Shown here: positions 34,419 to 54,097 of the stretch, piece after piece
How positions within the stretch are numbered: the stretch's first letter is position 1
How the letters are laid out: each line of letters begins with the position of its first letter
Origin: Nitrospira sp. CR1.1
GTDB taxonomy: Bacteria > Nitrospirota > Nitrospiria > Nitrospirales > Nitrospiraceae
Direction of reading: 5' to 3'
DNA length: 64,000 nt
Assembly: GCA_014055465.1 (NCBI GenBank)
Contig: WIAF01000010.1
Coordinates: 62,001-126,000 of the forward strand
Notes under the pieces: generated by a model
What the model saw: only the letters and a program-made list of their open reading frames with translations
The model's database searches: none
What the model was told of the DNA's origin: nothing
Translations under genes and position numbers: made by a program

Positions 34419-34487
34419 ATTCCAATAGAGGTACGTGAAGTCCCACAGCGTCTTCGACAAGTCCCAGTCACTCAAGGAGAGAAGACG
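34408..34487 (+). repeat. 80-bp transposon-end repeat, inner copy
   Basis: A direct repeat of 32638-32717 with one mismatch. It lies directly downstream of the tnpA stop (34472 overlaps its distal part) and is the immediate left end of the tnpA unit. The 36-bp core is repeated in inverted orientation at 37798-37833. Confidence 0.9.
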
Positions 34488-37400
34488 ATTGGCTCGCCCC
34501 CAAATTTGGGACCTGTTGAGGAGGTCAATTTTGGGAGCCGGATTCCAACGCTATCCCGTAGCTGTTCGTCAGAAAAATCATATTCGCCCAGCAGGTTCAG
34601 GTGCCGCCAGACCGCTGCCGAGCCGTGGGCTACCGCATCGAGCAAGGCTTCGCGGTCGGCGGGCTCTGTGGTCTCCTCCAGCTTTTGGGACAGATAGAGA
34701 TAATTCCAGCAGATGATACAGTTCTTGATGAGCCGTTTGCACGCTTCCTCCAGCTCCTGGTCTTCTTCCTCCGCCTGGAGAAACTCTCGCGGGTTGCCGA
34801 CCGAGATAGCCCGCGTGAAGCGGTGCACGTGTTCGATCCGGTCCAGCTGCTTTTCGATCGCTTGTCTCAACACGGGATTGTCGATGACCTGGAGAATAAC
34901 CAGTGATTTCGGGACTTGTCCAAAGGCCTTCAGTGCCCGATACAGCGCGTGCTGTTTCGAGTACGAGTTGAGCCGGCGGAACAGATCCGAAGCCGTCACT
35001 TCCTTCAACTTAATGGTGGCAATCAGGCGCAGGATCTCGTCCCAGTGCTGAATCACCATCGCGTCATCGGCGTAACCAGCGGGTTTGATCGTCCAGGAGG
35101 AACGATCGGGCCTCTTGGTCCTAAAGATGTAGCGCCGCTGGCGTTTGAGGTTTTTGAAGCGAGGCGCGTAGGAAAAGCCGAGCAAATGGCTCACGGCGAA
35201 GACCATCTCGCTGAACCCGAAGGCGTCGGTCGAATGAATATCACTGTGGACGACCTCGTTGTGCATCAGTCCATCGATCACGTAGGCACTTTCCCGCTCG
35301 GCCGCGCTGAAGACGGTGGAGTACCACAGCACGTCTCGCTCGTCGCGGAAGGTGTAGGCGGCCACGCCTTGTTCTTTGCCGAAGTATTTGAACGAGTAGT
35401 TGGCGTGCAGCGACTCGACGCGCACCTCGAATTGCTGCCCATCACTGGAGGTATGGAGACGATCCGGCACGCGGCGCATCAGGTTCGGTAATTCCAATTG
35501 GTCCATCAGGCGTACGACGCGATCACTGGCCGCCTGCAGACCATCCAGGGTGAAATGCCAGTTCACCGTATGCTCCAATTCGTCTTCATTAATCCCGCGG
35601 GAGATGCGCATCATACGGCGCAGGCCAATCGCGCAGCCGATGCCGATGATCCCCGCATAGATGGTGGCGTCCGAGGGCTTACCACGGTGGTACCGCTGCT
35701 GCGGGGGTTGCAATTCGTCCAGGTAGTGAGCGAAGCGGTTCGCCGTGGCGAGCACTTCCACCAATGGCACGACGTGGTGCTCGGGAAAGTAGTGCTGTAA
35801 GGGCTCTGCATCGTGCTCTTCTTGCTTGGGTGTGGCGAGGCTGAAGTCGCCGGTCTTCCTGACGGTGATGTAGGGATTCTTCCCCTCGGCAATCTTCTGA
35901 TTGGTGGTGAGATATTGCTGGTATAAGGCCTCGTCGAGTGCCGTGAGCACCTTGCGGGGCTCGACGAAGCCCTCCAACCCTGCCCGTTCGATCAGCTGCG
36001 GTTTCTCGCGCCGCCAGCGGGCGCGGTCGATCAGGTAGTCATCCAGAGGCCGGTATTTGTAGGAATGTTCCAGGTTCAGCGCACCGGATTTGATTCCGCT
36101 CTGCACGTGCTGGAAGAGCAGCGCCTTGTAGAGAGAGACGCGGAACTTGCCGTCTTTGTTGACGGCGGCCCGCTCCTTCGGATCCACGAATCCGGTCGGT
36201 GCCGATTGATCCACCGCCCCGTCCTGGTCTTTGAACTGCTCAATGGCCTCCACTAATTTCCGGGCGCCGGGCTCACCCTGAAAGGTCAGTGCCCTCAGGA
36301 CCGGGCTCACGCGATTCTGGATCCAGACCGACTTCGCCTCCAGGATTGTATAATAATCGTCCTCGCCCAACTCACTGACCAGCGACGCCTTGAGTTCGGC
36401 CACGGGATCGTCCTCGAGTAGGCGGCGGGTATCGTGCGCGGCGAGCAAGGCCCGGATGCGGGTCACTTTTTCCGCATCGCTAAGTGCCCGATCCTCGGCA
36501 ATACTGCCAATGGTGGTGAGAGTTCCGACGACCCCGTGTTCCAGGCTTGCGAGGAGAATCCTCAGTGTGTCGTGCTGTTGCTGATGGCGGGCGTAACACT
36601 GCTCCTTGTGCGCACGGCGGGCGCCGTTCTGAAAGCTCCGCAGACTGGCGAGCAGCCCATCGACCAAATTGTCGTGAAGCCTGTAGTACTGATGCGCGAT
36701 GAAGGCCACCACGTGCAGATAGCGATCCGGATCATCCCGACGCGTGATCTGAAAGATTTCCGCCCGGATCACCGTGTGAGCGTAATACAGGATCCCGCGG
36801 GGTTTGAGCGCGAGGGTGTGAAGCACCCGGCTCAGTTGATGGTACAGGTCTCGAACCAGGCTACAATCGGTCACACGCTCTTTGACCTTCGAGGGGTTGG
36901 TCGACTGCGAGAGCTTCTTCATTAAGGTGAGCTTGTAGGCACTGGTTTTGCCGGGAACGGTCTCCTCCGCGCGCGGTTCCTGCGTCAGCAGGTCGTCCAA
37001 GACGGATCGCGTCGCCGGGTCCAGCGTCCGTTCAATGGTACCTGCCAGCGTTTGACTCTGGGTCTTGATTGCACGCAGGGTATGAGCGGCTAAGGGGAAA
37101 TAGCCGGGGACTTCAATTTTCTCGCGAATCAGCACCTCGACACACCGCCAGAAGATGACCTTGGGCTTGAGCTGGGACCGTACCAGACGCGCGATTTCTT
37201 CAGCAAGGACAGGACGGCCGTGCGGGTGGAAGGGCTTGAAGCCGTAGACGCTTAGGATACATGTCCGGTGCCGTGATGAGGTCTCCTTGGGATAGCGCAC
37301 GAGGTGGGTCCCGCCCAGCCGCAGGCCTGTCCGCCTGGCAACGTAGTCAACATCCCGCCGATGAAATGTCCGCGACGGGAAGAAGCGCTTGCTCGCTTTG

Positions 37401-37567
37401 AAGTACCCGCAACTCAGGAGAAAGCACAGTTGATTGGCAGGCGTGCGCAGGCTCGCGGCCGCCTGCTGGATGGTGTGAGGGAAATCAAAATAGTGCTGGC
37501 GCTGAAAACTATTGAACATCGGGGCTGACTCGAAGGCTTCTCGCTCAACAGTGTGCAGAATATTCAT
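34472..37567 (-). CDS. tnpA: Tn3-family transposase TnpA
   Basis: The 1031-residue transposase contains the Tn3 catalytic region. It includes GIGCAIGLRRMMRIS with EDELEHTVNWHF, then the second-aspartate motif DIHSTDAFGFSEMVFAVSHL with FSYAPRFKNL. The closing block WRHLNLLGEYDFSDEQLRDS is highly typical. I start at the ATG at 37567 (MNILHTVEREAFESAPMFNS); the upstream 44 codons look unrelated. TnpA makes a replicative cointegrate between 38-bp-class inverted ends. The gene is intact. No resolvase gene is near, so resolution would depend on another recombinase. Confidence 0.93.
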   Translation of the reverse strand: MNILHTVEREAFESAPMFNSFQRQHYFDFPHTIQQAAASLRTPANQLCFLLSCGYFKASKRFFPSRTFHRRDVDYVARRTGLRLGGTHLVRYPKETSSRHRTCILSVYGFKPFHPHGRPVLAEEIARLVRSQLKPKVIFWRCVEVLIREKIEVPGYFPLAAHTLRAIKTQSQTLAGTIERTLDPATRSVLDDLLTQEPRAEETVPGKTSAYKLTLMKKLSQSTNPSKVKERVTDCSLVRDLYHQLSRVLHTLALKPRGILYYAHTVIRAEIFQITRRDDPDRYLHVVAFIAHQYYRLHDNLVDGLLASLRSFQNGARRAHKEQCYARHQQQHDTLRILLASLEHGVVGTLTTIGSIAEDRALSDAEKVTRIRALLAAHDTRRLLEDDPVAELKASLVSELGEDDYYTILEAKSVWIQNRVSPVLRALTFQGEPGARKLVEAIEQFKDQDGAVDQSAPTGFVDPKERAAVNKDGKFRVSLYKALLFQHVQSGIKSGALNLEHSYKYRPLDDYLIDRARWRREKPQLIERAGLEGFVEPRKVLTALDEALYQQYLTTNQKIAEGKNPYITVRKTGDFSLATPKQEEHDAEPLQHYFPEHHVVPLVEVLATANRFAHYLDELQPPQQRYHRGKPSDATIYAGIIGIGCAIGLRRMMRISRGINEDELEHTVNWHFTLDGLQAASDRVVRLMDQLELPNLMRRVPDRLHTSSDGQQFEVRVESLHANYSFKYFGKEQGVAAYTFRDERDVLWYSTVFSAAERESAYVIDGLMHNEVVHSDIHSTDAFGFSEMVFAVSHLLGFSYAPRFKNLKRQRRYIFRTKRPDRSSWTIKPAGYADDAMVIQHWDEILRLIATIKLKEVTASDLFRRLNSYSKQHALYRALKAFGQVPKSLVILQVIDNPVLRQAIEKQLDRIEHVHRFTRAISVGNPREFLQAEEEDQELEEACKRLIKNCIICWNYLYLSQKLEETTEPADREALLDAVAHGSAAVWRHLNLLGEYDFSDEQLRDSVGIRLPKLTSSTGPKFGGEPIVFSP

Positions 37568-37797
37568 TCGCGGCACGGCAAGCCTCCCGTCACGTTCGTG
37601 CCGGGCTATGAACGGCCGAACGAGCGCCTCTCCAGCACGAACGAGTCTACAAAGCGCCGTCGCATAGTAGCGCAGATGGTACGGGAGCCTGGATGACAAA
37701 GATATGATGCCGTGTCAAAACGTGTTGGGGCAGGGCTCGCGGTGGGCTCACGCCCACCTATATTGCATAGCGATGGGTCGGCGTTGGAGGGGGTTTT

Positions 37798-37865: not shown

Positions 37866-39530
37866 CTACCCAGCGCAACAGGACAGCTTGCTCACATCCT
37901 TCTTGAACGTCAGCGCAGCCAGTTTGAGCCCTTCGACCATCGTCAGGTATGGATGAAACGTGTCAGCCACGTCCTGCACAGCCAGCCCAAATCGGATGGC
38001 GAGGGTAGCCTCCTGAATCACCTCACCTGCTTCGGCTGCGAGAACGTGTGCGCCCACCAATCGCCCGGTTTCTTCCTCAGCGACCAGCTTAATAAGGCCT
38101 TTGGTATTCCGGGACGCCAGCGCCCTCGGGACATGCTCAAGCGGTAGCAGCGAGGTTTGCACGCGAAGCCCTTTCTCCCTCGCTTGTCGCTCGGTCAGGC
38201 CGACGCTCGCGATCTGAGGGTCGGTGAAGGTGACGTGCGGCAACGCCGTGAGATCGAACACCTTGCCCACGCCGCTGAGCGCGTTCTCGGCCGCAAGACC
38301 GCCTGCATAGGCGGCCACATACACGTACATCGGATCGCCAAGGCAGTCACCGGCTGCGTAGATATCGGGATTGGCTGTCTGCAAGTGCTCGTTCACTGTG
38401 ATCTCGCCTTTTGACCCTAATGCGACTCCGGCGTCTTCCAATCCGAACCCGCTCGTGTTCGGGCGGCGCCCAGTCGCAACCAGCAAGCAATCAGCCCGGC
38501 AGACCTCCGGCTTTCCGTCGGTCTGGGTGTGCACGAGGTAGCCTCCATCTCGACGCTCGACCTGACTGATTGTGACGTTCGTGCAGATCCGAACCTTCTC
38601 CTCTTCGAGGTAACGAACGAGTGCTTGCCCGATCTCCGGTTCCTCCGCTCTCGCCACATGTGGTCCGCTTTCCAGCACCATGACTTGGACACCGAATCGG
38701 GCAAAGAGCTGCGCAAACTCCAGCCCAATGCTGCCTCCCCCGATGATGATCAGTGACGCAGGAAGCGCCTCCAGGTTGAGCGCCTGCTCGCTAGTGAGAA
38801 AGCCGGCTTCGTGAAGTCCCGGTATCGGCGGCGCCCAAGGCGAAGAGCCTGTCGCGACCACGATCTTCTCCGGCTCATAGACAGTGCCATTGACGCGCAC
38901 CTGGCGCCCGCCCAGAAGCGTGGCGTCTCCTTTCAGAATGGTGATGGTGGGATACACAGCCGCCACGTCCACATACTTGCCTTGACGTAACGCGGCCACG
39001 AGCTCGTCCTTTTGCTGCACCACTCGTTGCCAGTTCGAGGGAGACGGACAAGCGGTCAGCCCTTCGAATTGCGGATAAGCGGAGTGATAACAGAGCTCAG
39101 CGGCCTTGATGAGCGTCTTTGATGGCACACAGCCGATGTTCACGCAGGTGCCACCAATGGTGTCTTTTTCGACGATCGCGACCGTGACGCCCAGCTCGGC
39201 AGCTTTGATCGCCGCGGCAAAGGCCGCTGAGCCGCCGCCGATCGTCATTAGATCGTAGTCCCGATGTTTCGATGACGGAACAGTGCGAGTCGGTTCCAAT
39301 TCGCGCCGCTCAACGACCACCCCGTGGTAGCCGGAACGCTGCACAGCCTCCAGGAGCGCGCGATCCGTCACGTCTGGTCCTGCCACGACTGTGGCCAGCC
39401 CTACACGCCAGGCGCCGATTTGGACGTCTTCCACTCCAGGAACGGCCTTCAGCGCCTGCGTGACGTGGCACGCGCAGCGTTCGCAGGTCATGCCTTCCAC
39501 GCGCAATGTCAGAAAGGATCGGTTGCTCAT
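37866..39530 (-). CDS. merA: Mercuric reductase MerA with N-terminal metal-binding domain
   Basis: The 554-residue flavoenzyme reduces Hg(II) to volatile Hg(0) with NADPH in the cytoplasm. The N-terminal HMA domain has GMTCERC (C16, C19). The FAD domain has MTIGGGSAAFAAAIKA and the redox motif GGTCVNIGCVPSK (C129, C134), and the C-terminus is KLSCCAG, the vicinal pair that hands mercury to the active site. All key residues are present. GGAGG precedes the ATG. It is the last gene of the mer operon and ends 33 bp from the Tn3 inverted repeat. Confidence 0.97.
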   Translation of the reverse strand: MSNRSFLTLRVEGMTCERCACHVTQALKAVPGVEDVQIGAWRVGLATVVAGPDVTDRALLEAVQRSGYHGVVVERRELEPTRTVPSSKHRDYDLMTIGGGSAAFAAAIKAAELGVTVAIVEKDTIGGTCVNIGCVPSKTLIKAAELCYHSAYPQFEGLTACPSPSNWQRVVQQKDELVAALRQGKYVDVAAVYPTITILKGDATLLGGRQVRVNGTVYEPEKIVVATGSSPWAPPIPGLHEAGFLTSEQALNLEALPASLIIIGGGSIGLEFAQLFARFGVQVMVLESGPHVARAEEPEIGQALVRYLEEEKVRICTNVTISQVERRDGGYLVHTQTDGKPEVCRADCLLVATGRRPNTSGFGLEDAGVALGSKGEITVNEHLQTANPDIYAAGDCLGDPMYVYVAAYAGGLAAENALSGVGKVFDLTALPHVTFTDPQIASVGLTERQAREKGLRVQTSLLPLEHVPRALASRNTKGLIKLVAEEETGRLVGAHVLAAEAGEVIQEATLAIRFGLAVQDVADTFHPYLTMVEGLKLAALTFKKDVSKLSCCAG

Positions 39531-39578: not shown

Positions 39579-39845
39579 TTAATGAGGCCGACTGAATTCC
39601 ACGTTCACCTCTTTGCTCAAATAATTGACCAGCACACCCTGCTTCTCATAAGCGAGCACGGCCCCCATGACGTTTTCGTCTCCCACCGCTTCCTTGCCGA
39701 GGATTTTATGGTGATGTCCGCGCGGATCGCCCTGGGCGTCGAGCGCAGGCTCTGAAGGCAGAACCAAAATGTGGCCATCGTGAAGCCACAGCACCACGAG
39801 GAAAAGCGCGGCGAGTGTGCTCGCAAGAGACCTCTTGCACCACAT
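39579..39845 (-). CDS. Small exported protein in the mer operon
   Basis: The 88-residue product starts MWCKRSLASTLAALFLVVLW, a likely signal peptide, followed by a short mature part containing DPRGHHHKILGKEAVGDENV, a histidine-rich stretch that could bind metal, and LAYEKQGVLVNYLSKEVNVE. No mer family is recognised. It lies between merP and merA on the same strand with a 38-bp gap to merP. There is no clear ribosome-binding site for the chosen ATG. Confidence 0.5.
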   Translation of the reverse strand: MWCKRSLASTLAALFLVVLWLHDGHILVLPSEPALDAQGDPRGHHHKILGKEAVGDENVMGAVLAYEKQGVLVNYLSKEVNVEFSRPH

Positions 39846-39883: not shown

Positions 39884-40294
39884 CTACTTCAAGAAGTGCC
39901 CGAACCAATTCCACCCCCCACTCTGTTCGCCAGCCTTGGCCGTGAGAGTGCCGTTCGGAACCACGCTGGCCCGATAGGAAGATAGGATGCTGCCTGCACT
40001 CGCGACGGCTTGGACCAATTGATCGCGGGTGACTCGACCGGGCTCGATTCCGACGATCGCTCCGCCGCGGGCATAGCTCACCTCTGCTCGGTTCACGCCC
40101 GGCACGGCGAGCAGCGCACGGCGAATGTCCTTTTCGCAACTGGCGCAGGTCCAACCCTCAATCTTCAGGGTCATCACTTCTCCGGCCTGGCTTGCAGACG
40201 CGCCGGCCTTTTGAGGAGAGGCCTCTGCCCCAGTTCCGCCCCAGAACATACTCCCCATCACGATCCAGCTTACGAGAAACATGGTCGTCTTCAT
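39884..40294 (-). CDS. merP: MerP-like periplasmic mercury-binding protein
   Basis: The 136-residue product has a signal peptide (MKTTMFLVSWIVMGSMFWGG). One HMA domain follows, KIEGWTCASCEKDIRRALLA, with the metal site GWTCASC, where canonical MerP has GMTCxxC. A C-terminal extension of about 40 residues goes beyond the usual 91-residue MerP. It would deliver Hg(II) to the MerT part of the fusion protein. GAGGTG 6 bases before the ATG at 40294 supports that start over a GTG three codons earlier. Confidence 0.88.
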   Translation of the reverse strand: MKTTMFLVSWIVMGSMFWGGTGAEASPQKAGASASQAGEVMTLKIEGWTCASCEKDIRRALLAVPGVNRAEVSYARGGAIVGIEPGRVTRDQLVQAVASAGSILSSYRASVVPNGTLTAKAGEQSGGWNWFGHFLK

Positions 40295-40332
40295 CAGGTT
40301 CACCTCTTTCTATGTGGCAGCGTTCTGCCTGC

Positions 40333-41463
40333 TCATGATCCTGTTGCAAGCTCCAACCAATAGGGTGCGAGTATCAACGCGACCGCAAGGCCGGCGATGA
40401 TCCAGAGCAGCCATCGATTCGGACGAAAACCTGACACCGGCACACAGGCCTGACAAGATGCCTCACCGAGCGTCGGCTTTCGGTACGCCAAATAGAAACC
40501 GACGCCCAGAAGCACCGCTGTCAATCCTATGAATAGTGGTCGGTACGGCAACAGCGCTTTGAGGCCCCCAGCCGTGTTGGCCAGAAACCCGGTGGCCCCC
40601 ACACCCACGCCCAGGGCGGCAAAGACGACTGGTCCGATGCAGCAGATTGACGCGAGGAAGGCGGCCAGCAGCCCTCCGGTTGTGCTGACCGTCATCGCGG
40701 CGTGTGGCGTCTCAGGTGGAGACCCCGTTGTGCCAAAGGACGACACCGCACCAGGTCGCGGCCTCAGGAGATCCTCAAAGATCCCCTTGCCCAGGTAGAG
40801 GGCTTCCCCCACACTCAGCACGTGACCATCCTCCTGTGGTCGTGCCTCCCGCCAGGCGGTCGCATGCCCCGGTGAACAGAAAAAATCTAGTGTGGGGCAG
40901 ATCGACGCCGCCGCGTGCCCGCGGTACTCGGTTCCGACCCAGACCACCGTCTCAGCCGGGATGCAGGACTCGATGCGCCGGTCTCGCACCTTGGTGGCCA
41001 CCGGCATCTCGCAATACGCACAGGACGACTCGATCATGAACGAGATGCCCAGCGCATCCACAGCACAGGGAGCGTAGATCGGCTTTTCCGAAGGCCGGTC
41101 CAGAAACTGCACAAGATGTTTTGTCGGAATCGTGGAAAAGGGGTATGCGAGACGAATCTCACGAGAGTCGGAGTCCAGATAGAGCAGATCCTTTTCATGC
41201 AATCGTTCTAGGATGGCCGACACGTCACCCGGCTCGTTCAAGCCAAGCGCCTTCGCGATTTCATGACAGCCAAGCGCACGCCCCAGCAAGGGATACTGCG
41301 TGAGGATATACTGCCTGACCGCCTCTTCTCGCGGGCTGAGCCCTGCTCGACGAAGCCTCCATCCCAGCATGGACTCAGTCCTGCTGAGGAGTCGCGTGGT
41401 CGTCTCGGTCGCAACCGGCCCGGTGGCCCCTCTGTGTTCTACACTCTCTACAGGCAGTTGCAT
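40333..41463 (-). CDS. merB: MerB-MerT fusion: organomercurial lyase joined to mercuric transporter
   Basis: One 376-residue frame holds two mer proteins. Residues 1-235 are MerB: a helical N-terminus, then APCAVDALGI with C133 and D136, and LDFFCSPGHATAW with C196, the three residues that cleave the carbon-mercury bond. Residues about 258-375 are MerT: LLAAFLASICCIGPVVFAAL with the C274-C275 pair in the first membrane helix, a second helix, a cytoplasmic SCQAC pair (C337, C340) and a third helix WLLWIIAGLAVALILAPYWL. A linker of about 22 residues (PRPGAVSSFGTTGSPPETPH) joins them. MerB normally works in the cytoplasm and MerT in the inner membrane, so the lyase would be tethered to the importer. 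The start at 41463 is 16 bp after the previous stop. Confidence 0.92.
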   Translation of the reverse strand: MQLPVESVEHRGATGPVATETTTRLLSRTESMLGWRLRRAGLSPREEAVRQYILTQYPLLGRALGCHEIAKALGLNEPGDVSAILERLHEKDLLYLDSDSREIRLAYPFSTIPTKHLVQFLDRPSEKPIYAPCAVDALGISFMIESSCAYCEMPVATKVRDRRIESCIPAETVVWVGTEYRGHAAASICPTLDFFCSPGHATAWREARPQEDGHVLSVGEALYLGKGIFEDLLRPRPGAVSSFGTTGSPPETPHAAMTVSTTGGLLAAFLASICCIGPVVFAALGVGVGATGFLANTAGGLKALLPYRPLFIGLTAVLLGVGFYLAYRKPTLGEASCQACVPVSGFRPNRWLLWIIAGLAVALILAPYWLELATGS

Positions 41464-41479: not shown

Positions 41480-41977
41480 TTACGAACGTGCGACGGCTTG
41501 ATCGCCGCTTGTGCGCTCGGCAGCCGCCTGTTTCTCCGCCTGGCGTACCTCCCCCAAACAGCATCGACCCGACGGATTCTCCACCTCACAGCGGCAGTTC
41601 CCCGCCTTAATCTCGGCTCGAATGCGGGGCGAGGCCGAGGACCCTCCGGTCCGCTGAATTTCTTCGCGGATCATGCGCTCCGTCACGCCGAAGCAATAAC
41701 AGATCGGGACCGGATCCTCCGTCTCCTTCAGCCCAACCCGCACCCGGACTTGCGCCTTCCGGAGCTGCGTTCCATCAGCGGCGGAGTACACGACCGGGCA
41801 GTGCGGAGTCTCACAGAACACATACTGGCAGCCATTCACCATACCCAGTGCCTCGGGTTTGAGCAGGGCCTGAACAGTGGTCCGATCGACTGGTTGGCCT
41901 TCGCGGCCGCATTGAGGACACAGCAATCGAGCTCCTGGTTTCGTTGGCTCCGCAGGCGTCTTGCAGCAGTCCGTCAT
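41480..41977 (-). CDS. CopZ/BFD-like iron-sulphur or metal-binding protein in the mer operon
   Basis: The 165-residue protein is cysteine-rich. The N-terminal MTDCCKTPAEP and ARLLCPQCGREGQ form a zinc-ribbon-like start. The middle has VNGCQYVFCETPHCPVVYSA. The C-terminal PICYCFGVTERMIREEI and GNCRCEVENPSGRCCLGEV match the BFD-like [2Fe-2S] fold of the CopZ N-terminal domain. Its role in mercury handling is unknown; it could buffer or shuttle metal or electrons. It overlaps the merF stop as ATGA, so it is translated with merF. Confidence 0.8.
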   Translation of the reverse strand: MTDCCKTPAEPTKPGARLLCPQCGREGQPVDRTTVQALLKPEALGMVNGCQYVFCETPHCPVVYSAADGTQLRKAQVRVRVGLKETEDPVPICYCFGVTERMIREEIQRTGGSSASPRIRAEIKAGNCRCEVENPSGRCCLGEVRQAEKQAAAERTSGDQAVARS

Positions 41978-42261
41978 CCGTTTTTCCTTCTCCCCAAACC
42001 TCGTCGCTCCCGACTCTCGGATTCATGGGGCATGTAGCAGGCACTACCCGTGTCTTGCTGCTGACGGGTTCCTGCATACACGGCAAGACTCAGGAATACG
42101 GCTAGAGCCGGAAGGAGCACGTAGTCCAGATAGCCGGTGATGGCCCCCAGTCCAACCACTCCCAACAACACCACTAAGATCGGCGTCAAGCAGCACAGGG
42201 CGACGAGGCCGGAGCCGATCAATCCTATCCACAGCAGCCGCTTACGCTGGGTCTCTTCCAT
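41974..42261 (-). CDS. merF: MerF mercuric ion transporter
   Basis: The 95-residue inner-membrane protein has two hydrophobic helices: IGLIGSGLVALCCLTPILVV with the vicinal cysteine pair that receives Hg(II), and GYLDYVLLPALAVFLSLAVY. This is the standard MerF plan, followed by a short tail with another cysteine (GSACYMPHE). AAAGGGGG lies upstream of the ATG at 42261. Its stop overlaps the CopZ-like gene. With the MerT part of the fusion, the operon encodes two separate importers. Confidence 0.92.
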   Translation of the reverse strand: MEETQRKRLLWIGLIGSGLVALCCLTPILVVLLGVVGLGAITGYLDYVLLPALAVFLSLAVYAGTRQQQDTGSACYMPHESESRERRGLGRRKNG

Positions 42262-42272
42262 CCGACCCCCTT

Positions 42273-42551
42273 TTATGATTGACCGATGCCCGCCGCCCTC
42301 AAGGTGTGAGCCGAGAGTGGCTCCCGTCGGCAACAGTCCAGTAGCACGCCATCGACTGCAATAGCCGGGACCGCGGTAATACCATAGCGGCTGCCTTTCT
42401 CCCGGCATTCGTTCTCGTCGCAGCCCTCTCGTAAGTCATGTATCTGCACGTCACAACTGGGGCAGGCCAGCGACTGCACCAAGTCGACGGCGTCATTACA
42501 AAGCGGGCAGCCAGCCGTGAATACCTCCACACGGCGTTTTGTAGTTGTCAT
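42273..42551 (-). CDS. Thioredoxin-like (glutaredoxin-type) protein of the mer operon
   Basis: The 92-residue thioredoxin-fold protein has FTAGCPLCNDAVDLV, a CPxC redox motif near residue 15, then SCDVQIHDL and YGITAVPAIAVDGVLLDCC with the cis-proline. Such small proteins recur next to merR in mer operons; a role in reducing or carrying mercury-thiol species is plausible but unproven. AAGGAGG before the ATG at 42551 is an excellent ribosome-binding site. It is the second gene of the operon. Confidence 0.85.
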   Translation of the reverse strand: MTTTKRRVEVFTAGCPLCNDAVDLVQSLACPSCDVQIHDLREGCDENECREKGSRYGITAVPAIAVDGVLLDCCRREPLSAHTLRAAGIGQS

Positions 42552-42714: not shown

Positions 42715-43155
42715 TCACTTCTGCCTTTGGGCGGATCTTGATGTTCGCGTGACGCTCGCCTGCAGGCTCTTGAGAATCGGACAACGATCCGTCGGCTGCC
42801 CGGCCCGGCAGTCTCGAATCAGGCTCCGAAGCGCCCGGGCGAGCGCTTGCAGATCCCGCACTTTCGCCTCCACGTGCGTCAGCTTGGCTTGCGCTCGTCG
42901 TTGTACATCACCGCAGCGCGCGGTCGACGTGACGCTGAGCTTGAACAGTTCGGCGATTTCTTGCAGGGTGAAGCCCAGTGCTTGAGCGTTCTTGATGAAC
43001 CGAAGCCGCTGTTCTTCGTCTTCGCCATAGATCCGGTATCCCGACGGTCGGCGCGCAGACGGACCAAGCAGCCTGCGCCGTTCGTAGTACCGCACGGTCT
43101 GGATATTGACGCCAACCGCCTTTGCGAGTTGCCCGATGGTGCAGCCAACTGTCAT
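42715..43155 (-). CDS. merR: MerR mercury-responsive transcription regulator
   Basis: The 146-residue MerR protein has the winged helix-turn-helix (TIGQLAKAVGVNIQTVRYYE), the dimerisation helix, and the three mercury ligands C81, C116 and C125, equivalent to C82, C117 and C126 of Tn501 MerR, the last two in IRDCRAGQPTDRC. It would twist the spaced promoter at 43174-43205 when Hg(II) binds. It is the first gene of the operon and is transcribed with it rather than divergently, unlike Tn501 and Tn21. Confidence 0.97.
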   Translation of the reverse strand: MTVGCTIGQLAKAVGVNIQTVRYYERRRLLGPSARRPSGYRIYGEDEEQRLRFIKNAQALGFTLQEIAELFKLSVTSTARCGDVQRRAQAKLTHVEAKVRDLQALARALRSLIRDCRAGQPTDRCPILKSLQASVTRTSRSAQRQK

Positions 43156-43173: not shown

Positions 43174-43205
43174 ACTCTACACCCTGTACCACGGTACTGA
43201 GTCAA
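43174..43205 (-). promoter_or_regulatory. MerR-type mer promoter and operator
   Basis: On the minus strand TTGACT (-35, 43205-43200) and TAGAGT (-10, 43179-43174) are separated by 20 bases instead of 17, the diagnostic long spacer of MerR promoters. The dyad GTACC-GT-GGTAC lies in the spacer. It precedes the merR ribosome-binding site GGAGGTGAG, so MerR controls its own gene and the whole operon from here. Confidence 0.88.
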
Positions 43206-43417: not shown

Positions 43418-44595
43418 GGAACGTCTGATTAATTCGCGTTTGCGCTGAGCAATCCATTCCTCGGGTGGTCAACCAGGGCTACTGGTATGGGACTGCGCTG
43501 GTCCGGGAGCGTCGGTGCGGGGTTCGCCCACCGTCAGGTCGCCCGCAACCCCGTTCGCACAGACGCTCGCTAGGCCTCCGCCAACAGGCGCCGGCGAGCC
43601 ACGTACAGATTCGCCAAGCCGCAGCTGATGAACAGCCAGTGGGTATTCTTCGCCAACCCACGGTACCGGACTGTGGCCCATCCAAAGATCCGCTTGATCA
43701 CCAAGCACACATGCTCGACTTTGGCGCGGACCTTCGACTTCGTGCGATTGCGGGCACGCTCGGCCTCGCTCAAGGGCCGATGGCGATGGGCTTTCGTCGG
43801 GATGAAGCTCTGGGCATCGGGGGCGTGGTGCCGGATCACGTCGCGTTGCCCGCTGTAGGCGGCATCGCCCCACACCCGTGTCTCCTGCCCATGCAGCAGG
43901 TCCGGCAACACCTGGCTGTCATGCACATTCGCCGCCGTGGCCGCGACCGAATGGATCAGTTTGGTCCGACTATCCACGCCGATATGGGCCTTCATGCCGA
44001 TATACCACTGGTTCCCCTTCTTGGTCTGATGCATCTCGGGATCCCGCTCCTTCGTGCGATGCTTCGTCGAACTGGGGGCCGCAATAATGGTGGCATCCAC
44101 GATGGTCCCTCGGCTCACCTGCAAGCCTTGCGTGACCAACTGCTCTCGGATTCGCACAAAGAGTTGTTCGCCCAGCTGGTGGGCTTCCAGCAGGTGGCGA
44201 AACTTGCCGATCGTCGTCTCATCCGACACCGGTTCGCGGCCCAGATCAATGCCGACGAATTGCCGCATGGCCCGTGAGTCATACAGCGCCTCCTCCACCG
44301 CTGGATCCGACAGGTTGAACCACTGTTGCAGACAATGGAGGCGCAGCATGCGGTCGACGCCCACCGGCGGACGCCCAGGGCCCTCGGCCTTGGGATAGAC
44401 CGGCTCGATTACGGCCACCAATTCCGCCCACGGCACCACGCGGTTCATCTCGTCGAGAAACCGCTCCCGGCGGGTGGGCTTGCGATACTGCTCAAACGAG
44501 ACCTCGGCAAACGTCGATTGCTGCATGGGGGCGCCTCCTCAATCGTGTTGCGCTCCCGTTAGCACATCGCGAGCGGAGAATAAATCAGACCTTCC
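43418..44595 (-). mobile_element. IS5-family insertion sequence (IS5-like group)
   Basis: The ends GGAACGTCTGATTAATTC (43418) and, inverted, GGAAGGTCTGATTTATTC (ending 44595) match at 16 of 18 positions and enclose one transposase gene. The flanks read ATAG and TTAG, target-like but not identical. The right end is almost fused to the next element. Confidence 0.85.
43570..44526 (-). CDS. IS5-family transposase
   Basis: The 318-residue transposase has the IS5 plan. An N-terminal DUF772-type domain (RPPVGVDRMLRLHCLQQWFN, VSDETTIGKFRHLLE) precedes the DDE core: IVDATIIAAPSSTK for the first aspartate, WGDAAYSGQ for the second, and AKVEHVCLVIKRIFGW for the glutamate. The frame is intact. Opposite-strand frames across it are shadows. 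It lies between the mer operator and a second IS5-family element. Confidence 0.93.
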   Translation of the reverse strand: MQQSTFAEVSFEQYRKPTRRERFLDEMNRVVPWAELVAVIEPVYPKAEGPGRPPVGVDRMLRLHCLQQWFNLSDPAVEEALYDSRAMRQFVGIDLGREPVSDETTIGKFRHLLEAHQLGEQLFVRIREQLVTQGLQVSRGTIVDATIIAAPSSTKHRTKERDPEMHQTKKGNQWYIGMKAHIGVDSRTKLIHSVAATAANVHDSQVLPDLLHGQETRVWGDAAYSGQRDVIRHHAPDAQSFIPTKAHRHRPLSEAERARNRTKSKVRAKVEHVCLVIKRIFGWATVRYRGLAKNTHWLFISCGLANLYVARRRLLAEA

Positions 44596-44608: not shown

Positions 44609-45094
44609 TCACGAGATGTTGAGCCAGAGGACGAGGCATCTGATTTGGATGGCGGCGAGGAAGGACTTGCTGTTTTTGGCGTATCTTGTTGCAATGCCGC
44701 GCCATCTTTTGAGCATCAGGAACGCATTTTCGATGAGGTGGCGCAATTTGTAAAGGTCTTCGTCGTAGAGCCTTTGATGGATGCGGTTTTTCTTTGGTGG
44801 AATGACGGCGTTCATGCCCTGGGCAGCGGCCTGTTCAATGATCGCATCGGTATCATAACCTTTATCGGCGATGAGATACTCGGCATCAATGCCTTCGATC
44901 AGCTTTGAAGCCTGCGTGCAATCAGCGGCGGTACCGTGCGTAATAATAACTCTGACCGGCATACCAAACGCATCCACGGCCAGATGCAGTTTGGTGTTAA
45001 GCCCCCTTTTGTGCGGCTCATGTCCTGATTGCCGCCTCTGGCGCCTGCGGCATGAGGGTGAACCTTGCAATGGCTGGCGTCGATCATCAGCCAT
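44609..45094 (-). CDS. IS427-type transposase, second frame (OrfB)
   Basis: The C-terminal half of the DDE transposase is readable from about 45010 as HKRGLNTKLHLAVDAFGMPV, then IADKGYDTDAII for the second aspartate and LIENAFLMLKRWRGIATRY for the glutamate. It is not a separate protein by design: a slippery AAAAGGGGG (around 45003-45011) sits at the crossing point with the first frame, so a programmed shift is expected to make the full enzyme. The first part of this frame before the crossing is noncoding-like. Confidence 0.85.
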   Translation of the reverse strand: MADDRRQPLQGSPSCRRRQRRQSGHEPHKRGLNTKLHLAVDAFGMPVRVIITHGTAADCTQASKLIEGIDAEYLIADKGYDTDAIIEQAAAQGMNAVIPPKKNRIHQRLYDEDLYKLRHLIENAFLMLKRWRGIATRYAKNSKSFLAAIQIRCLVLWLNIS

Positions 45095-45381
45095 TCGTAA
45101 TCAGGCGCATCGATCAGCACTTCAAGCAGCCCTTCCCAGATGCCCTTGTCCCGCCAGCGGATGAAACGGCGGTGTGTGTTGCTCCACCCACCGTATTCCG
45201 GCGGCAGATCGCGCCACGGCGCGCCCGTTCTCAAAATCCAGAAGACCGCATTGATAAACAGGCGGTTGTCCTGGGCAATGCCTCCCCAGACGCCCTTGCG
45301 CCCTGGCAGATGCGGCTCCAAAAGCGCCCATGTTTCATCGGATATATCGTGACGGCGATAGGCGGGATGTGAGTGCTTCAT
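44899..45381 (-). CDS. IS427-type transposase, first frame (OrfA)
   Basis: The frame starts MKHSHPAYRRHDISDETWAL and contains the DUF4096-type N-terminal domain (NRLFINAVFWILRTGAPWRD) and the first catalytic aspartate in WLMIDASHCKVH. Real homology ends near NQDMSRTKGG (about 45005), where the frame shifts to OrfB; the residues after it are out-of-frame read-through. Together the two frames encode one transposase of about 250 residues. Confidence 0.85.
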   Translation of the reverse strand: MKHSHPAYRRHDISDETWALLEPHLPGRKGVWGGIAQDNRLFINAVFWILRTGAPWRDLPPEYGGWSNTHRRFIRWRDKGIWEGLLEVLIDAPDYEWLMIDASHCKVHPHAAGARGGNQDMSRTKGGLTPNCIWPWMRLVCRSELLLRTVPPLIARRLQS

Positions 45382-46965: not shown

Positions 46966-47082
46966 CCCACGCTTATTTCCAGCTCTTCACGTTTCAACAT
47001 AGTTATAGGCGCTCAGCACGGCACGTCCGTGACTGCGTGTAACGGAAGTCGCTCGCCAAGGCGCCGATGGGGGAGAACCAGC

Positions 47083-48342
47083 ATGAGGCCTGCACTCGTT
47101 TGGAGAATCGTCGCCGCGCTCGGATGCGCGATGATATTTGAGTCATATCCGACGGGCTATGCCACAGAACCGAGCCCGGGCGGATACACGCTGAGCCAAA
47201 TCGTACAACTCGCGCTCCGACACAACCCAATGATGAACGGCGCGGAAGCAGTGCTGGAACAGAGTCAAAGTCAGCGCGTCACGGCCGGTGCCTATTTGAA
47301 TCCCACCATCACGGGGTCGGCCGGCCGCGGGTCGATTCGGGACCCCAATACCGGTGTTTCGATCACCGAACGGACGATCACCGTGGAGCAGCCGCTGGAG
47401 TGGCTGGGCAAACGCACAGCCCGACAACGCGCCGCCGACGCGGGGGTGGCCGGCGCTCTCGCCGGCGTGGACGAAACAAAAGTGCTGGTCATGACCGAAG
47501 TAAAAGGGGCGTTTTTCCAGTTGCTCCTGGCGCAACAGGATGCACAGCTCGCGAGGGAGAACCTGAAGACGGTCGAAGATCTCGTGAAATTGGTGAGTGC
47601 GCGGGTCAGCACGCGAGAAGCGCCGAAATTCGAGTTGGTCAAGGCAACCGTTGAACTCCAAAAAACACGGAAGGATCTGGCGAGGGCGGACAACGCGCTC
47701 CTGGTGGCTCGTGCCAAACTCAATACGGTCACAGGCAAGGCCCTCGGAGAATCATTTGCCATCCAGGGGGAGTTTGAAACAGTGAGGTCGGGACTGGATC
47801 TACGTGTACTGACAGATCAAGCACTCGACCGACATCCCGCACTTCGCCGACAACAGAAAGCGGTCGAGCAAGCCGAATTTACGATCGAACAGGAACGCGC
47901 CTCGCGCATGCCGAACGTGGCCGTGATCGGCCAGTATCATCGAGAAGCCGGTGACGAATCCATCACGGCGGGGCTGAGCGTGCCGCTGCCCCTGTGGTAT
48001 CGCCGACAGGGAGAGATCGGGACGGCGATGGGAGCTCATCGACGAGCGCAAGCCGAACGGGCTCGCGTGCAGCAGGAACTGGAGCAGACCATCACGCAGC
48101 ATTTTCAGGAGGTGCGGACTGCTCAAGAACAGATGCAGGTCTTCGAGCAAGGACTCCTCTATCAAGCCAAAGAAGCGTTCGACATCGCCCAGTTCAGTTT
48201 TCGCCATGGAGTGGCGAGTTTGCTCGAAGTCATCGACGCGCAGCGTGTCTACCGCCAGACGCTCCTCGAATATGCCCAGGCACGAGCCGATCATTCCATC
48301 GCGCTGACCCGATTGGAGCGGGCGGTGGGAGGGTTGCCATGA
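47083..48342 (+). CDS. czcC: CzcC-like outer-membrane efflux protein
   Basis: The 419-residue TolC-fold protein has a signal peptide (MRPALVWRIVAALGCAMIFE) and two OEP repeats with long helices: YTLSQIVQLALRHNPMMNGA, LEWLGKRTARQRAADAGVAG, then VLTDQALDRHPALRRQQKAV and SLLEVIDAQRVYRQTLLEYA. It forms the outer-membrane channel for the RND pump. GGGGGAGA before the ATG supports the start. Its stop overlaps the czcB start (ATGA), so the three pump genes are translationally coupled. Confidence 0.92.
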   Translation: MRPALVWRIVAALGCAMIFESYPTGYATEPSPGGYTLSQIVQLALRHNPMMNGAEAVLEQSQSQRVTAGAYLNPTITGSAGRGSIRDPNTGVSITERTITVEQPLEWLGKRTARQRAADAGVAGALAGVDETKVLVMTEVKGAFFQLLLAQQDAQLARENLKTVEDLVKLVSARVSTREAPKFELVKATVELQKTRKDLARADNALLVARAKLNTVTGKALGESFAIQGEFETVRSGLDLRVLTDQALDRHPALRRQQKAVEQAEFTIEQERASRMPNVAVIGQYHREAGDESITAGLSVPLPLWYRRQGEIGTAMGAHRRAQAERARVQQELEQTITQHFQEVRTAQEQMQVFEQGLLYQAKEAFDIAQFSFRHGVASLLEVIDAQRVYRQTLLEYAQARADHSIALTRLERAVGGLP

Positions 48343-49559
48343 ACGTTCACATCGTGAGGCGTTCATCACCGGTTTATCGAACGATCGGCCTGTTCCTGTT
48401 GGTCGCCATAGTGAATACGTCGTGTCAGTCAAAGCAAGAGGATGCGCCGAAACCGCCTGCCCAGGCGGCCACGGCGTTGAATGAACCCGGTATCATCGAA
48501 CTGCCTGATGGGAGTCCGACTCTCACCCACCTACAGACCGATCGAGCAGCGCTCCGGCCGATCCGCACGGCCCTCAAGGCCCAGGCGGGGAAGATTTTGG
48601 TCAATGAGAATCGACTAGCGCATCTGAGCGCGCGAGTTCCCGGCCGTATCGTGGCTGTGTATACCAACCTCGGCGACCGAGTCCGGGAAGGGGACCGGCT
48701 GCTGTTACTCGACAGCCCCGCCTTTGGAGGGGCCCAGTTGGAGTATCGGAAAGCGAGGACCACAGTGGGTGTGACGGAACAAGCGCTGGAGCGGGCCAAA
48801 GCCCTAATCGATCGCGGTGCGATCGGCGCGGGGGAATATCAACGGCGCGAGGCGGACCATGAGAATGCTCGTGCCGATCTCCACGAAGCGGAGGAAAAGC
48901 TGCATTTACTCGGCATGACGGAGCAGGAGATCGAGCGGTTGGCCGCCAAGACCTTGCCCCATGCGGAGGTCGCGCAAGTCTCCTTACGAGCCCCCTTTAC
49001 CGGTGACGTGATCGAGCGGAACGCGACCATTGGCGAAGTCATCGATCCCAATAAGACGCTCTTCACAGTGGCAGACCTCTCGACTGTCTGGGTGCGTGCC
49101 GATTTCCCGGAGCAACAGGCTGGTCGACTGAAGACCGGCCTCACCATCGAGCTGCGAGTGTCGGCCTATCCGGAGACGGTGTTTCGAGGTGCCATTACCT
49201 ATGTTGGCGCGGTGATCGATCCCACGACGCGGACCGTGACGGCACGGGCGGATGTATCCAACCCTGACGGCCGATTACGACCCGAAATGTTCGCCGACGT
49301 CACATTGATGACGGACGAGCAATCCGTCTTGAGTGTCCCGCGCGCCGCCGTGCAGCAGGTTGGCAGCCGGACGGTCGCGTTCATTGTGCAAGGACCGCGT
49401 CGGTTCGAATCCCGTGAGGTGACCGTCGCCCAAGCGTCGGGCGACTACATCCAGGTTGTGGCCGGGCTCACGGCAGGAGAGGAAGTGGTCACGCAGGGCA
49501 GTTACGCCCTCAAGTCTGAGTTGCTCCGCGAGCACATGCCGTCGGAGGGCGCGCCATGA
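48339..49559 (+). CDS. czcB: CzcB-like periplasmic adaptor (membrane-fusion lipoprotein)
   Basis: The 406-residue adaptor has a lipoprotein signal with cysteine 29 (LVAIVNTSCQ). It then shows the lipoyl/barrel-sandwich halves (LAHLSARVPGRIVAVYTNLG, and APFTGDVIERNATIGEVIDP), a helical hairpin between them, and the beta-barrel and membrane-proximal domains (LSTVWVRADFPEQQAGRLKT, VLSVPRAAVQQVGSRTVAFI). It links the inner-membrane pump to CzcC and may hand metal on. It overlaps czcC and czcA by 4 bases each. Confidence 0.92.
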   Translation: MNVHIVRRSSPVYRTIGLFLLVAIVNTSCQSKQEDAPKPPAQAATALNEPGIIELPDGSPTLTHLQTDRAALRPIRTALKAQAGKILVNENRLAHLSARVPGRIVAVYTNLGDRVREGDRLLLLDSPAFGGAQLEYRKARTTVGVTEQALERAKALIDRGAIGAGEYQRREADHENARADLHEAEEKLHLLGMTEQEIERLAAKTLPHAEVAQVSLRAPFTGDVIERNATIGEVIDPNKTLFTVADLSTVWVRADFPEQQAGRLKTGLTIELRVSAYPETVFRGAITYVGAVIDPTTRTVTARADVSNPDGRLRPEMFADVTLMTDEQSVLSVPRAAVQQVGSRTVAFIVQGPRRFESREVTVAQASGDYIQVVAGLTAGEEVVTQGSYALKSELLREHMPSEGAP

Positions 49560-52500
49560 TCGAACGGCTGATCCGCGGCGCGCTGGAACAACGACTCATC
49601 GTGCTGCTGCTTATGCTCGGGCTCATCGTGAGCGGCGTGGCCGCGTTCCGCCACCTCCCGATTGATGCCTTTCCCGATGTCACTCCGGTCCAGGTTCAAG
49701 TCATCACCCGGGCGCCCTCTCTGGCGCCTTCAGAAATCGAACGCCTCGTGACCTTTCCCCTGGAGATCGAGTTGACGAACCTCCCGAGGAAAACGGAACT
49801 GCGGTCGGTGTCGCGATTCGGACTCTCGGTGATAACGGTCGTCTTTGAGGACAGGATGGATATCTATTTCGCCAGACAACTCGTCTTGGAACGGGTGCTC
49901 CAGGCGCGATCCCGGCTTCCAGCAAGCGCCGAGCCCGTACTCGGACCGGTCAGTACGGGATTGAGCGAAGTCTTCATGTATCTCGTCGAGGGCTCGACGC
50001 AGAGCCTCATCGACTTACGGACCCTTCAAGACTGGGTCATCCGCCCGATGCTGCGCGCCGTCCCAGGCCTCGCGGATGTGGACACGTTGGGTGGCTTGGC
50101 CAAACAGTATGAAGTCCTCGTCGATCCTAATCGATTGACGAGCTTTGGGCTCACGCTGCGCCAAGTCCACGCGGCGGTCGCAGGGAATAATCAAAATGCC
50201 GGGGGCAGTTACATTGAGCAGGGCGGAGATAAGTTGGTCGTCCACGGGGTGGGGCTGGCCCGCTCTGTGGGAGACCTTGAACAGATCGTGGTGGCTGCGC
50301 ACAAGGGCACACCAATCTATCTTCGGGACGTGGCCCAAGTTCGCCAAGGGACCGCGATTCGGTTAGGGGGCGTCACGCGCGACGGCACGGGCGAGGTACT
50401 CGAAGGCATTGCCGTCATGCTCCGCGGCGGCAATAGCCGGGAGATCGTTGCGGGGGTAAAAGACAAGGTCGAGTTGATCAACCGGGTGCTGCCGGCCGGC
50501 GTGAAGATGGTGCCGTTCCATGACCGCATCGAATTGGTGGCGCGGGCACTCGATACCGTCGAGCGTGCCCTGCTGGAGGGTGCCGCGGTCGTCATCCTCG
50601 TCCTCTATCTCTTTCTCCGGAATCTCCGCGGCGCGCTCGTCGTCGCGCTGACATTGCCGCTGGCCACGTTGGCTACATTTCTGATTATGCAACAGGTTGG
50701 CCTGTCTGCGAATCTGATGTCACTGGGCGGCTTGGCCATCTCGCTGGGAATGATTGTCGATGCGGCCATCGTGCAGGTGGAGAATGTCGAGCGCCATCTG
50801 GGCGAGCAAACCACGGGCCGAGCCCTCTCGGTTACCGACCGTTTGCCAGTCGTCTTACGCGCCGTCCTGGAAGTGCGGCGGCCGAGCCTGTTCGGGGAAT
50901 TGATCATTGCGTTGACCTTTGTTCCGCTCCTGACACTCCAAGGAATGGAAGGCAAGATGTTTATCCCGCTGGCCCTGACGGTGGTGATCGCCCTCCTGAG
51001 CTCCTTGGTGCTTTCCATGACGGTGGTTCCGGTGCTGGCGGCGGTGCTCATGAAGCCGCGTGTCGCGGAGGAGGGCGGGCACCTGTTGGAGAGGGGGCGA
51101 CGGCTCTATCGCCAGTTGTTGGAGGGGGCCATCCACAAAACTCGTCTGGTCGTCCTTGCGGCGGCCGGTGTACTTGTCGGCGGAGCGGCCCTGGTCCCGT
51201 TCATCGGTCGGGAATTCGTCCCGATCATGGACGAAGGCACGATCGTCGTGAATGTGATGCGGCTCCCGAGCATCAGCCTCAGCGAATCACTGAAAATTTC
51301 GGGGGAGGTCGAACGACTCTTGCTGGAGATACCGGACGTGCGCTCCGTGGTTTCGCGCACGGGCGCCAACGAACTCGGAACGGATCCGATGGGGATGGAA
51401 CTCAGCGACATGTACGTCTTACTCAAGTCCGAGTCCGAGTGGCAGGCGCAGTCCAAGGCCGACATCGAGGAGCAGATCCGTCGGCGGCTGGCGCAAGTGC
51501 CTGGCATCGCCTTTGGCTTGTCCCAGCCGATCGCCATGCGCGTCGATGAATTGGTATCGGGGGTCCGGTCCCAGGTCGCGGTCAAACTGTTCGGCGACGA
51601 ACTTGAGACGTTGCGGATCAAGGCAGAGGAGATCGCCAGGGTGCTGCGGCAGGTGCGCGGCCTGTCCGATCTCCGGGTCGAGCAGGTGTCGGGCCTGTAC
51701 TATCTGAAGATCGACATCGACCGTGCCAGGATCGCGCGATACGGGATCAATGTGGCCGAGATCACGGAGGTGATTGAAGCCGTCGGTGGCGGCATTGCCG
51801 CCGGCGAGGTCTTCGAAGGACAGTGGCGTTTTCCGATCATGGTGCGATTTCCGGATGATCGGCGTGCCGATGTCGAGACGATTGCGGCGTTGTGGGTGAC
51901 GGCCCCGGACGGCTCCCGGATTCCGCTCCGGGATCTGGCCGAGATTCGGATTGTGGACGGGCCGGCCCAGATCAGCCGTGAGCATGCGAGCCGCCGGATT
52001 GTGATCGAAGCCAATGTGGTCGGACGCGACCTGGTCGGCGCGGTGGAAGAGGCCCAAGCAGCAGTGGGTCGTCTGGTGCAGCTCCCGCCGGGCTATTATG
52101 TGACCTGGGGTGGCCAATTCGAAAACCAACAGCAGGCGATGGCACGGCTGGCCGTGGTCGTTCCACTGGTCATTGGACTGATCTTTCTGCTGCTCTTTTT
52201 CACGTTCGGGAATTTGAGGCAGGCCGCGCTCATTCTCCTCGCGATTCCGTTTGCGATGGTCGGCGGCCTGCTGGCGCTGATGCTGGGCGGGCTATATCTC
52301 TCGGTTCCGGCCTCCGTCGGCTTTATTGCCTTGTTCGGCGTGGCGGTACTCAATGGGGTCGTGAAGATCGCCTACATCAACCAACTGCGGGAACAGGGCA
52401 TGGCATTGGATGAAGCAGTGCTGACCGGGATGGTTCTCCGATTGCGTCCGGTTCTGATGACGGCAGTTGTTGCGATGATGGCGCTCCTTCCTCTGCTGCT

Positions 52501-52693
52501 GGCCACCGGACCCGGTTCCGAAATCCAACGGCCACTCGCAACAGTGGTGATCGGGGGGTTGTTTTCATCGACCGCCTTAACCTTAGTCGTGCTTCCCGTG
52601 CTCTATCGGTGGGTCGAGCAACGAATGGCGCGACGGCGCGCCTCGGAGGAAGCCGTACTTACCACGGCTTCTGACAGAGAGGTGACAACATGA
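49556..52693 (+). CDS. czcA: CzcA-like heavy-metal RND efflux pump
   Basis: The 1045-residue inner-membrane proton antiporter has the RND plan: N-terminal helix (LIVLLLMLGLIVSGVAAFRH), two large periplasmic domains and 12 helices. HME-family sequence is seen in LPIDAFPDVTPVQVQVITRA and RFGLSVITVVFEDRMDIYFA. In helix IV the sequence is ISLGMIVDAAIVQVENVERH, with the D-A-A-x-V-x-V-E-N pattern but without the DFG element of zinc/cobalt/cadmium CzcA, so the metal exported cannot be assigned. It is the third gene of the coupled cba operon. Confidence 0.93.
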   Translation: MIERLIRGALEQRLIVLLLMLGLIVSGVAAFRHLPIDAFPDVTPVQVQVITRAPSLAPSEIERLVTFPLEIELTNLPRKTELRSVSRFGLSVITVVFEDRMDIYFARQLVLERVLQARSRLPASAEPVLGPVSTGLSEVFMYLVEGSTQSLIDLRTLQDWVIRPMLRAVPGLADVDTLGGLAKQYEVLVDPNRLTSFGLTLRQVHAAVAGNNQNAGGSYIEQGGDKLVVHGVGLARSVGDLEQIVVAAHKGTPIYLRDVAQVRQGTAIRLGGVTRDGTGEVLEGIAVMLRGGNSREIVAGVKDKVELINRVLPAGVKMVPFHDRIELVARALDTVERALLEGAAVVILVLYLFLRNLRGALVVALTLPLATLATFLIMQQVGLSANLMSLGGLAISLGMIVDAAIVQVENVERHLGEQTTGRALSVTDRLPVVLRAVLEVRRPSLFGELIIALTFVPLLTLQGMEGKMFIPLALTVVIALLSSLVLSMTVVPVLAAVLMKPRVAEEGGHLLERGRRLYRQLLEGAIHKTRLVVLAAAGVLVGGAALVPFIGREFVPIMDEGTIVVNVMRLPSISLSESLKISGEVERLLLEIPDVRSVVSRTGANELGTDPMGMELSDMYVLLKSESEWQAQSKADIEEQIRRRLAQVPGIAFGLSQPIAMRVDELVSGVRSQVAVKLFGDELETLRIKAEEIARVLRQVRGLSDLRVEQVSGLYYLKIDIDRARIARYGINVAEITEVIEAVGGGIAAGEVFEGQWRFPIMVRFPDDRRADVETIAALWVTAPDGSRIPLRDLAEIRIVDGPAQISREHASRRIVIEANVVGRDLVGAVEEAQAAVGRLVQLPPGYYVTWGGQFENQQQAMARLAVVVPLVIGLIFLLLFFTFGNLRQAALILLAIPFAMVGGLLALMLGGLYLSVPASVGFIALFGVAVLNGVVKIAYINQLREQGMALDEAVLTGMVLRLRPVLMTAVVAMMALLPLLLATGPGSEIQRPLATVVIGGLFSSTALTLVVLPVLYRWVEQRMARRRASEEAVLTTASDREVTT

Positions 52694-53100
52694 TGCGCAC
52701 TTGTCGTGACGATCGTTGCTGGCTCTTGATCGTGATGCTGGCGATTCTCTCTCCTGCCATGCTCAGCGGCTGCGGCGAGACACCTTCCTCTCGCCACGTC
52801 ACTGCCAAGCAAGCGCTCCTCGGCAAATCCGAAGCGGAGGTCCTGGCCTGCGCTGGGGCACCACAGGCGGTCTCGTCCCAGGATAGCCTGAGAGTCTTGA
52901 GCTACTACAAGGAGGGCGGATTGCTCGAACAGTCTTTCCCTGGAAACAAGAGTAGCCGCCCGGAAGGCGTGCGGCACGCCTGTACGGCCATCGTGAAGGT
53001 GGAGAACGATCGGGTCACCCAGGTGCAGTACCAGATGATGCCGGAATCAACGGCCACGCATGAGCATTGTGAAGAGATCTTTCAGCGCTGTGGGCCGTAG
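52690..53100 (+). CDS. Small lipoprotein after the efflux pump (copy 1)
   Basis: The 136-residue lipoprotein has a signal ending LAILSPAMLSGCGE (lipobox cysteine about 28), then ATAKQALLGKSEAEVLACAG, 'GAPQAVSSQDSLRVLSYYKE', LLEQSFPGNKS and a cysteine-containing end HEHCEEIFQRCGP. It resembles small outer-membrane lipoproteins of the SmpA/OmlA kind only in general form. Its start overlaps the czcA stop, so it is part of the operon. A close paralogue is at 58426-58836. The function is unknown. Confidence 0.8.
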   Translation: MMRTCRDDRCWLLIVMLAILSPAMLSGCGETPSSRHVTAKQALLGKSEAEVLACAGAPQAVSSQDSLRVLSYYKEGGLLEQSFPGNKSSRPEGVRHACTAIVKVENDRVTQVQYQMMPESTATHEHCEEIFQRCGP

Positions 53101-53145
53101 GCCCCAGTCTATTCATGAAATCGGACGGCGCAAGGGAAAGAAACG

Positions 53146-54066: not shown

Positions 54067-54097
54067 GGCGTTGGTTGAAAAGCTACAGGAGACCAGC

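Follow-up and report, generated by a model that had tools for sequence, protein, structure and literature searches.

A gene joining the organomercurial lyase MerB to the mercury importer MerT in Nitrospiraceae mer operons

Natural fusions of MerB to MerA have been reported in rhizobia, e.g., on the S. meliloti plasmid pSmeAK21b, and a faster hand-off has been proposed for these MerBA proteins (PMC11227200). MerT is likewise found in natural fusions, with MerP at the C-terminal end in MerTP (NF033556), and a MerT-like domain is part of the MerT/CopZ fusion-like selenoprotein (NF045683). The window analyzed here, a stretch of 64,000 nucleotides from Nitrospira sp. CR1.1, carries a gene, merBT, that encodes MerB and MerT in one protein. 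As in MerBA, an N-terminal MerB is followed by a linker and a second mer protein, but the partner is the membrane importer MerT and not the soluble reductase MerA, which is encoded by a separate gene. The arrangement also differs from MerTP, as MerB is attached to the other end of MerT and MerP is a protein of its own, and from NF045683, which lacks a lyase and which merBT matches with 46 bits against a cut-off of 375. A preliminary description of this DNA had regarded the fusion as foreign to the standard mer components, which agrees with the absence of MerB-MerT as a named architecture among the matching entries of Pfam and NCBIfam (both incomplete libraries) and with the lack of any description in the literature searched. 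The term “MerBT” in nitrification and ecology papers, judged by their titles, is apparently unrelated and probably an author surname. The halves are familiar; their combination was not found described.

merBT belongs to a mer operon located entirely on the minus strand, with the order merR, thioredoxin-like gene, merF, CopZ-like gene, merBT, merP and merA:

43174..43205 (-), mer-type promoter/operator upstream of merR (TTGACT, dyad, -10-like TAGAGT)
42715..43155 (-), merR, MerR-family regulator
42273..42551 (-), thioredoxin/glutaredoxin-like small protein
41974..42267 (-), merF, second mercury importer (NF033565, above cut-off)
41480..41977 (-), CopZ-like iron-sulfur metallochaperone (NF047645, above cut-off)
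40333..41463 (-), merBT, MerB-MerT fusion gene (376 aa plus stop)
39884..40303 (-), merP-like HMA protein (Pfam HMA)
37866..39530 (-), merA, mercuric reductase with an N-terminal HMA domain (TIGR02053, 581 bits, above cut-off)

MerR scores 132 bits, little below the NCBIfam MerR cut-off of 151, and the merR gene together with a long-spacer promoter bearing an operator dyad (GTAC-CGTG-GTAC at 43197-43186) identifies a MerR-controlled mer operon. A GTAC-N4-GTAC dyad, which we take to be the form of mer operators, precedes merR at the seven fusion loci examined. Both in the window and in genome G341, merA lies downstream of the fusion, and strong merA matches are found about 1 kb from the fusion in G021 and UBA2083, while no MerA above the family cut-off was identified in genomes G016, where the fusion is intact, and G210, where it is frameshifted. 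The G016 locus (L004/L072) has an intact merBT with merP. In the window, a remnant of a cupredoxin-like gene lies between merP and merA (39579-39826, minus strand); this gene is intact in N. moscoviensis (188 aa, L014 6568-7134).

A Tn3-type transposase and two transposase-like genes, recognized by eye, flank the operon (34472-37699, 43570-44526 and 44609-45381); one short IS5 match was obtained. At 47029-57764, genes for a cation diffusion facilitator, a P-type metal ATPase and RND-type metal efflux can be recognized by eye, which would suggest a wider metal-resistance island. In G021, a bin of another Nitrospira species, a whole 34.6-kb contig is 100% identical to window positions 27049-61613, and no match to window positions 1-6000 was found in that genome. 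This shared block may be a recently transferred metal-resistance island, or a contig shared between the bins or mis-binned.

The fusion gene is a single unbroken frame on the minus strand (41463..40333), starting with an ATG that lies 16 bases past the stop of the upstream gene, behind AAGAAAAGGAAATCGAGG. Its layout is as follows:

41140..41463 (-), N-terminal region of the MerB part, residues 1-108
40777..41139 (-), MerB (alkylmercury lyase) domain, residues 109-229 (PF03243; alignment to 3f2g and 5c17)
41032..41037 (-), deletion junction M143/I144, where six residues (18 bp, in frame) are absent
40696..40761 (-), linker, residues 235-256, 22 aa, Pro/Gly/Ser-rich
40693..40695 (-), M257, in-frame ATG, probable relict merT start
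40348..40686 (-), MerT domain, residues 260-372 (PF02411; hydropathy and charge)

Both Pfam domains exceed their cut-offs within this uninterrupted frame, i.e., MerB at residues 109-229 (E 4.1e-23, 82.2 bits, cut-off 27) and MerT at residues 260-372 (E 2.7e-14, 53.6 bits, cut-off 32.9), and the linker between them, PRPGAVSSFGTTGSPPETPHAA, is rich in P, G, S, T and A; the preliminary description of a lyase and an importer in one frame, separated by 22 residues of Pro/Gly/Ser character, thus holds. Residues 1-108 align with the N-terminal part of MerB2, from about residue 59. The MerT half displays three hydrophobic segments by hydropathy, with C274-C275 in TM1 and C337/C340 in the TM2-TM3 loop, and the protein ends after TM3, where no HMA domain follows. 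In the host genome, merBT is the sole MerB match and also the sole MerT match.

A search across 175 Nitrospiraceae genomes identified the intact fusion in eight (G000, G021, G010, where it is cut by a contig end, G294, G297, G290, G016 and G341), whereas in G210 the MerB part is frameshifted. G294 is the closed chromosome of Nitrospira moscoviensis (NZ_CP011801.1) and has two divergent copies, at L068 4345-5448 and L014 5001-6146, sharing 49% identity in MerB and 69% in MerT, and a merA is located no more than about 15 kb from each copy. The chance that an assembly or sequencing artefact joined two genes is negligible given independent assemblies that include this closed isolate chromosome with its two divergent copies, and the intact fusions in eight genomes dispose of the missed stop that had been raised as a concern. 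When the host genome, G021 and G010 are counted as one allele (G021 being 100% and G010 99.8% identical to the window), seven distinct fusion proteins remain, with 48-90% identity in MerB and 57-94% in MerT. merBT is a genuine, inherited two-domain mer protein that is lineage-specific. No fusion was found in viral contigs or on plasmids, where no record covers 80% of the query at one place and the best match, from Jiella, has separate genes; in a phylum-level check MerB was present in 14 of 246 genomes, with all inspected MerB frames outside Nitrospiraceae being unfused. The scan of all genome contigs relied on short exact peptide patterns, which would miss divergent fusions, with other phyla sampled at limited depth.

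Comparison of the window allele with N. moscoviensis gives dN/dS values of about 0.32 for the MerB core and 0.20 for MerT, and of about 1.5 for the linker, which exceeds 1 in window-versus-homologue comparisons. These values indicate that both domains are under purifying selection and that the linker sequence is free to evolve. The distance from the IFE motif of MerB to the CC motif of MerT is nevertheless exactly 43 residues in all seven distinct fusions.

In the lyase half, alignment to the solved MerB 3f2g places C133, D136 and C189 at C96, D99 and C159, respectively, identifying these three as the catalytic residues by homology. Of the residues named earlier for the lyase, C133 and D136 are therefore borne out, but C196 is not, as it is C189 that aligns with C159; C196 is conserved within this MerB subgroup only. 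A CxxC (C148/C151) is conserved in most members of the subgroup to which merBT belongs, and both subgroup extras lie near the active site (C148/C151 at 41011-41022 and C196 at 40876-40878, minus strand); of these two conserved elements, canonical MerB has the first only. Together, the CxxC and C196 possibly form an additional metal site. The MerB half scores 48.3 bits against the NCBIfam MerB equivalog (cut-off 193) and the N. moscoviensis copy 74.9 bits, and by these sequence comparisons the lyase half is a divergent MerB subgroup outside this equivalog. Its best NCBIfam match, at 60 bits, is the SaoL MerB-like organometallic lyase (NF040728), for which merBT is below the cut-off of 140 and lacks an in-frame TGA; it also differs from SaoL in being located in a merA-containing mer operon. 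In the second N. moscoviensis copy and in G341, TGA occurs as the terminal stop only.

In the window protein, M143 is followed by a gap of six residues, which are present in all other homologues; the gap lies between the catalytic helix and the conserved CxxC. As the 18-bp deletion is in frame and is also found in G010, it is real and not a sequencing slip. That all homologues keep these residues, and that the deletion allele recurs in G010 at 99.8% DNA identity, could mean that the lyase half of this allele has lost or changed its activity and now does no more than bind Hg in the cytoplasm as an adaptor for MerT. We consider this unlikely, as C133, D136, C148, C151, C189 and C196 are all intact and the MerB core, with its dN/dS of about 0.32, is not accelerated: a relative-rate comparison of the window allele and N. 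moscoviensis, made with two outgroups, gave 2 versus 2 changes and thus no sign that the lyase half is decaying.

The importer half has its cysteines, C274-C275 and C337/C340, at all the positions first assigned to them, and they match the pairs described for MerT, Cys24-Cys25 and Cys76/Cys82 (PMC5715351). The half scores 45.7 bits against the NCBIfam MerT equivalog (cut-off 150) and belongs to a Nitrospiraceae MerT clade. The TM2-TM3 loop bearing the second cysteine pair contains 4-5 Lys/Arg in all seven fusions, and these positive charges would place the loop in the cytoplasm; by the positive-inside rule, the N-terminal MerB should then be cytoplasmic and the C-terminus periplasmic. This predicted topology fits the proposal that lyase and importer are tethered at the membrane.

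The linker had been described as devoid of start codon context. No Shine-Dalgarno sequence is indeed found there, but an in-frame ATG, M257, lies 17 residues ahead of the CC motif. The codon at this position varies among the seven fusions (ATG, ATG, TTG, GTG, GTG, GCG and ACA), and because of this variation and the missing Shine-Dalgarno sequence, M257 is probably the relict start codon of an ancestral merT, with regular internal initiation being unlikely. A frame with two products, i.e., the full-length fusion and a stand-alone MerT initiated at M257, would agree with an ATG sitting exactly at a MerT start position, with ATG, TTG or GTG in five of the seven fusions and with a stand-alone MerT in G361 that can start at the equivalent position; we nonetheless hold it to be quite improbable, since the upstream Shine-Dalgarno sequence is absent, two fusions have GCG and ACA, and a relict start accounts equally well for M257. 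In several Nitrospiraceae mer loci, stand-alone MerT proteins open with MAMCPYEE-like starts, and CPY.EWLGFCP-like short peptides follow merR (L019, L006 and L061-L067).

Separate merB and merT genes in close relatives had been proposed as a sign that the fusion is an artefact. Such genes do exist, and they carry no such implication, because the fusion is conserved across divergent species. A stand-alone MerB is encoded in G285 (Nitrospiraceae) in the order merR-merF-merB-cupredoxin-CMD and is 53-58% identical to the fused MerBs over the compared region, while stand-alone MerT is found in many relatives, G015 among them. A Jiella pelagia plasmid has adjacent merB-merT-merP in the same gene order, with a MerB of about 37% identity that also has the extra CxxC, but there the genes are separate, with a 59-bp gap. 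In G028 (L005 1501-1971), a CopZ-like metallochaperone continues at its C-terminal end directly and in frame into MerT; merB is absent and the frame continues to the contig end.

Grouping of the fused MerB halves as one clade is not rejected (AU p 0.215), but that of the fused MerT halves is (AU p 0.0004), so that the fusion must have arisen repeatedly, or else MerB was lost or MerT exchanged at a later time. In view of the constant spacing, the best fit is one ancient fusion with subsequent loss of MerB or exchange of MerT, with repeated fusion being a possible alternative origin.

The relay established for mercury leads from MerP through the TM1 cysteines of MerT and the cysteines at its cytoplasmic face to MerA (PMC5715351). 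Transposed to merBT, this suggests, in our view rather probably, a tethered lyase-importer fusion in which MerB is anchored next to the exit of MerT, on the cytoplasmic side of the membrane. In the mechanism that we infer, from the topology in the membrane to transport, cleavage by the lyase and a direct hand-off, a flexible linker would join the lyase to the cytoplasmic N-terminus of MerT; Hg(II) or an aryl-mercury cation would pass from MerP to C274-C275 in TM1 and then, in the cytoplasmic loop, to the pair C337/C340; from there, organic mercury would be passed on to C133/C189 of the tethered MerB, where protonation by D136 would cleave the C-Hg bond; and the released Hg(II) would move to the N-terminal domain of MerA and be reduced to Hg(0). 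MerT has been summarized as a carrier of inorganic and aryl mercury and not of methylmercury (PMC3466566), so phenylmercury is the expected coupled substrate. The cutting of organomercury at entry, as first proposed, may thus be limited to aryl mercurials, and methylmercury may enter by other routes. Besides this substrate range, the six-residue deletion of the window allele, the NCBIfam scores of both halves below the equivalog cut-offs, the lack of a MerA above cut-off in G016 and G210 and the relatives with MerB or MerT as separate proteins weigh against the tethered reading.

The fusion might secure no more than equal dosage and membrane anchoring of two otherwise independent proteins, with transport and cleavage uncoupled, which would agree with the neutral linker sequence, with a MerB standing alone in the similar operon of G285 and with MerT also alone in relatives. 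The spacing of 43 residues kept in seven divergent proteins suggests a constraint on geometry and speaks against this alternative, although the argument is weak for a short stretch without indels; overall, we regard the uncoupled arrangement as a serious rival, if somewhat less than probable. At the other extreme, a vectorial import-and-cleave device, in which organic mercury reaches the tethered lyase without release and the length of the linker is tuned for hand-off, appears doubtful to us. Within the favored tethered arrangement, the tether may act chiefly through a raised local concentration and an equal dosage, and less through strict channelling. AlphaFold models built from a three-sequence input had a mean pLDDT of 38 for the window protein and 43 for the N. 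moscoviensis copy, too poor to show a domain interface.

The coupling of MerB to MerA has already been discussed, and that of uptake to cleavage is an open point in broad-spectrum mercury resistance. A natural tethered pair in N. moscoviensis, a cultured nitrite oxidizer, makes this coupling directly testable by splitting the protein. Since merB and merT are here one gene, gene-level annotation can miscount them. Organomercury-resistance genes are thus present in Nitrospira, which abound in wastewater and drinking-water systems and which, if vectorial import-and-cleave were true, would be able to detoxify mercury in aryl, and possibly in alkyl, form at the membrane.
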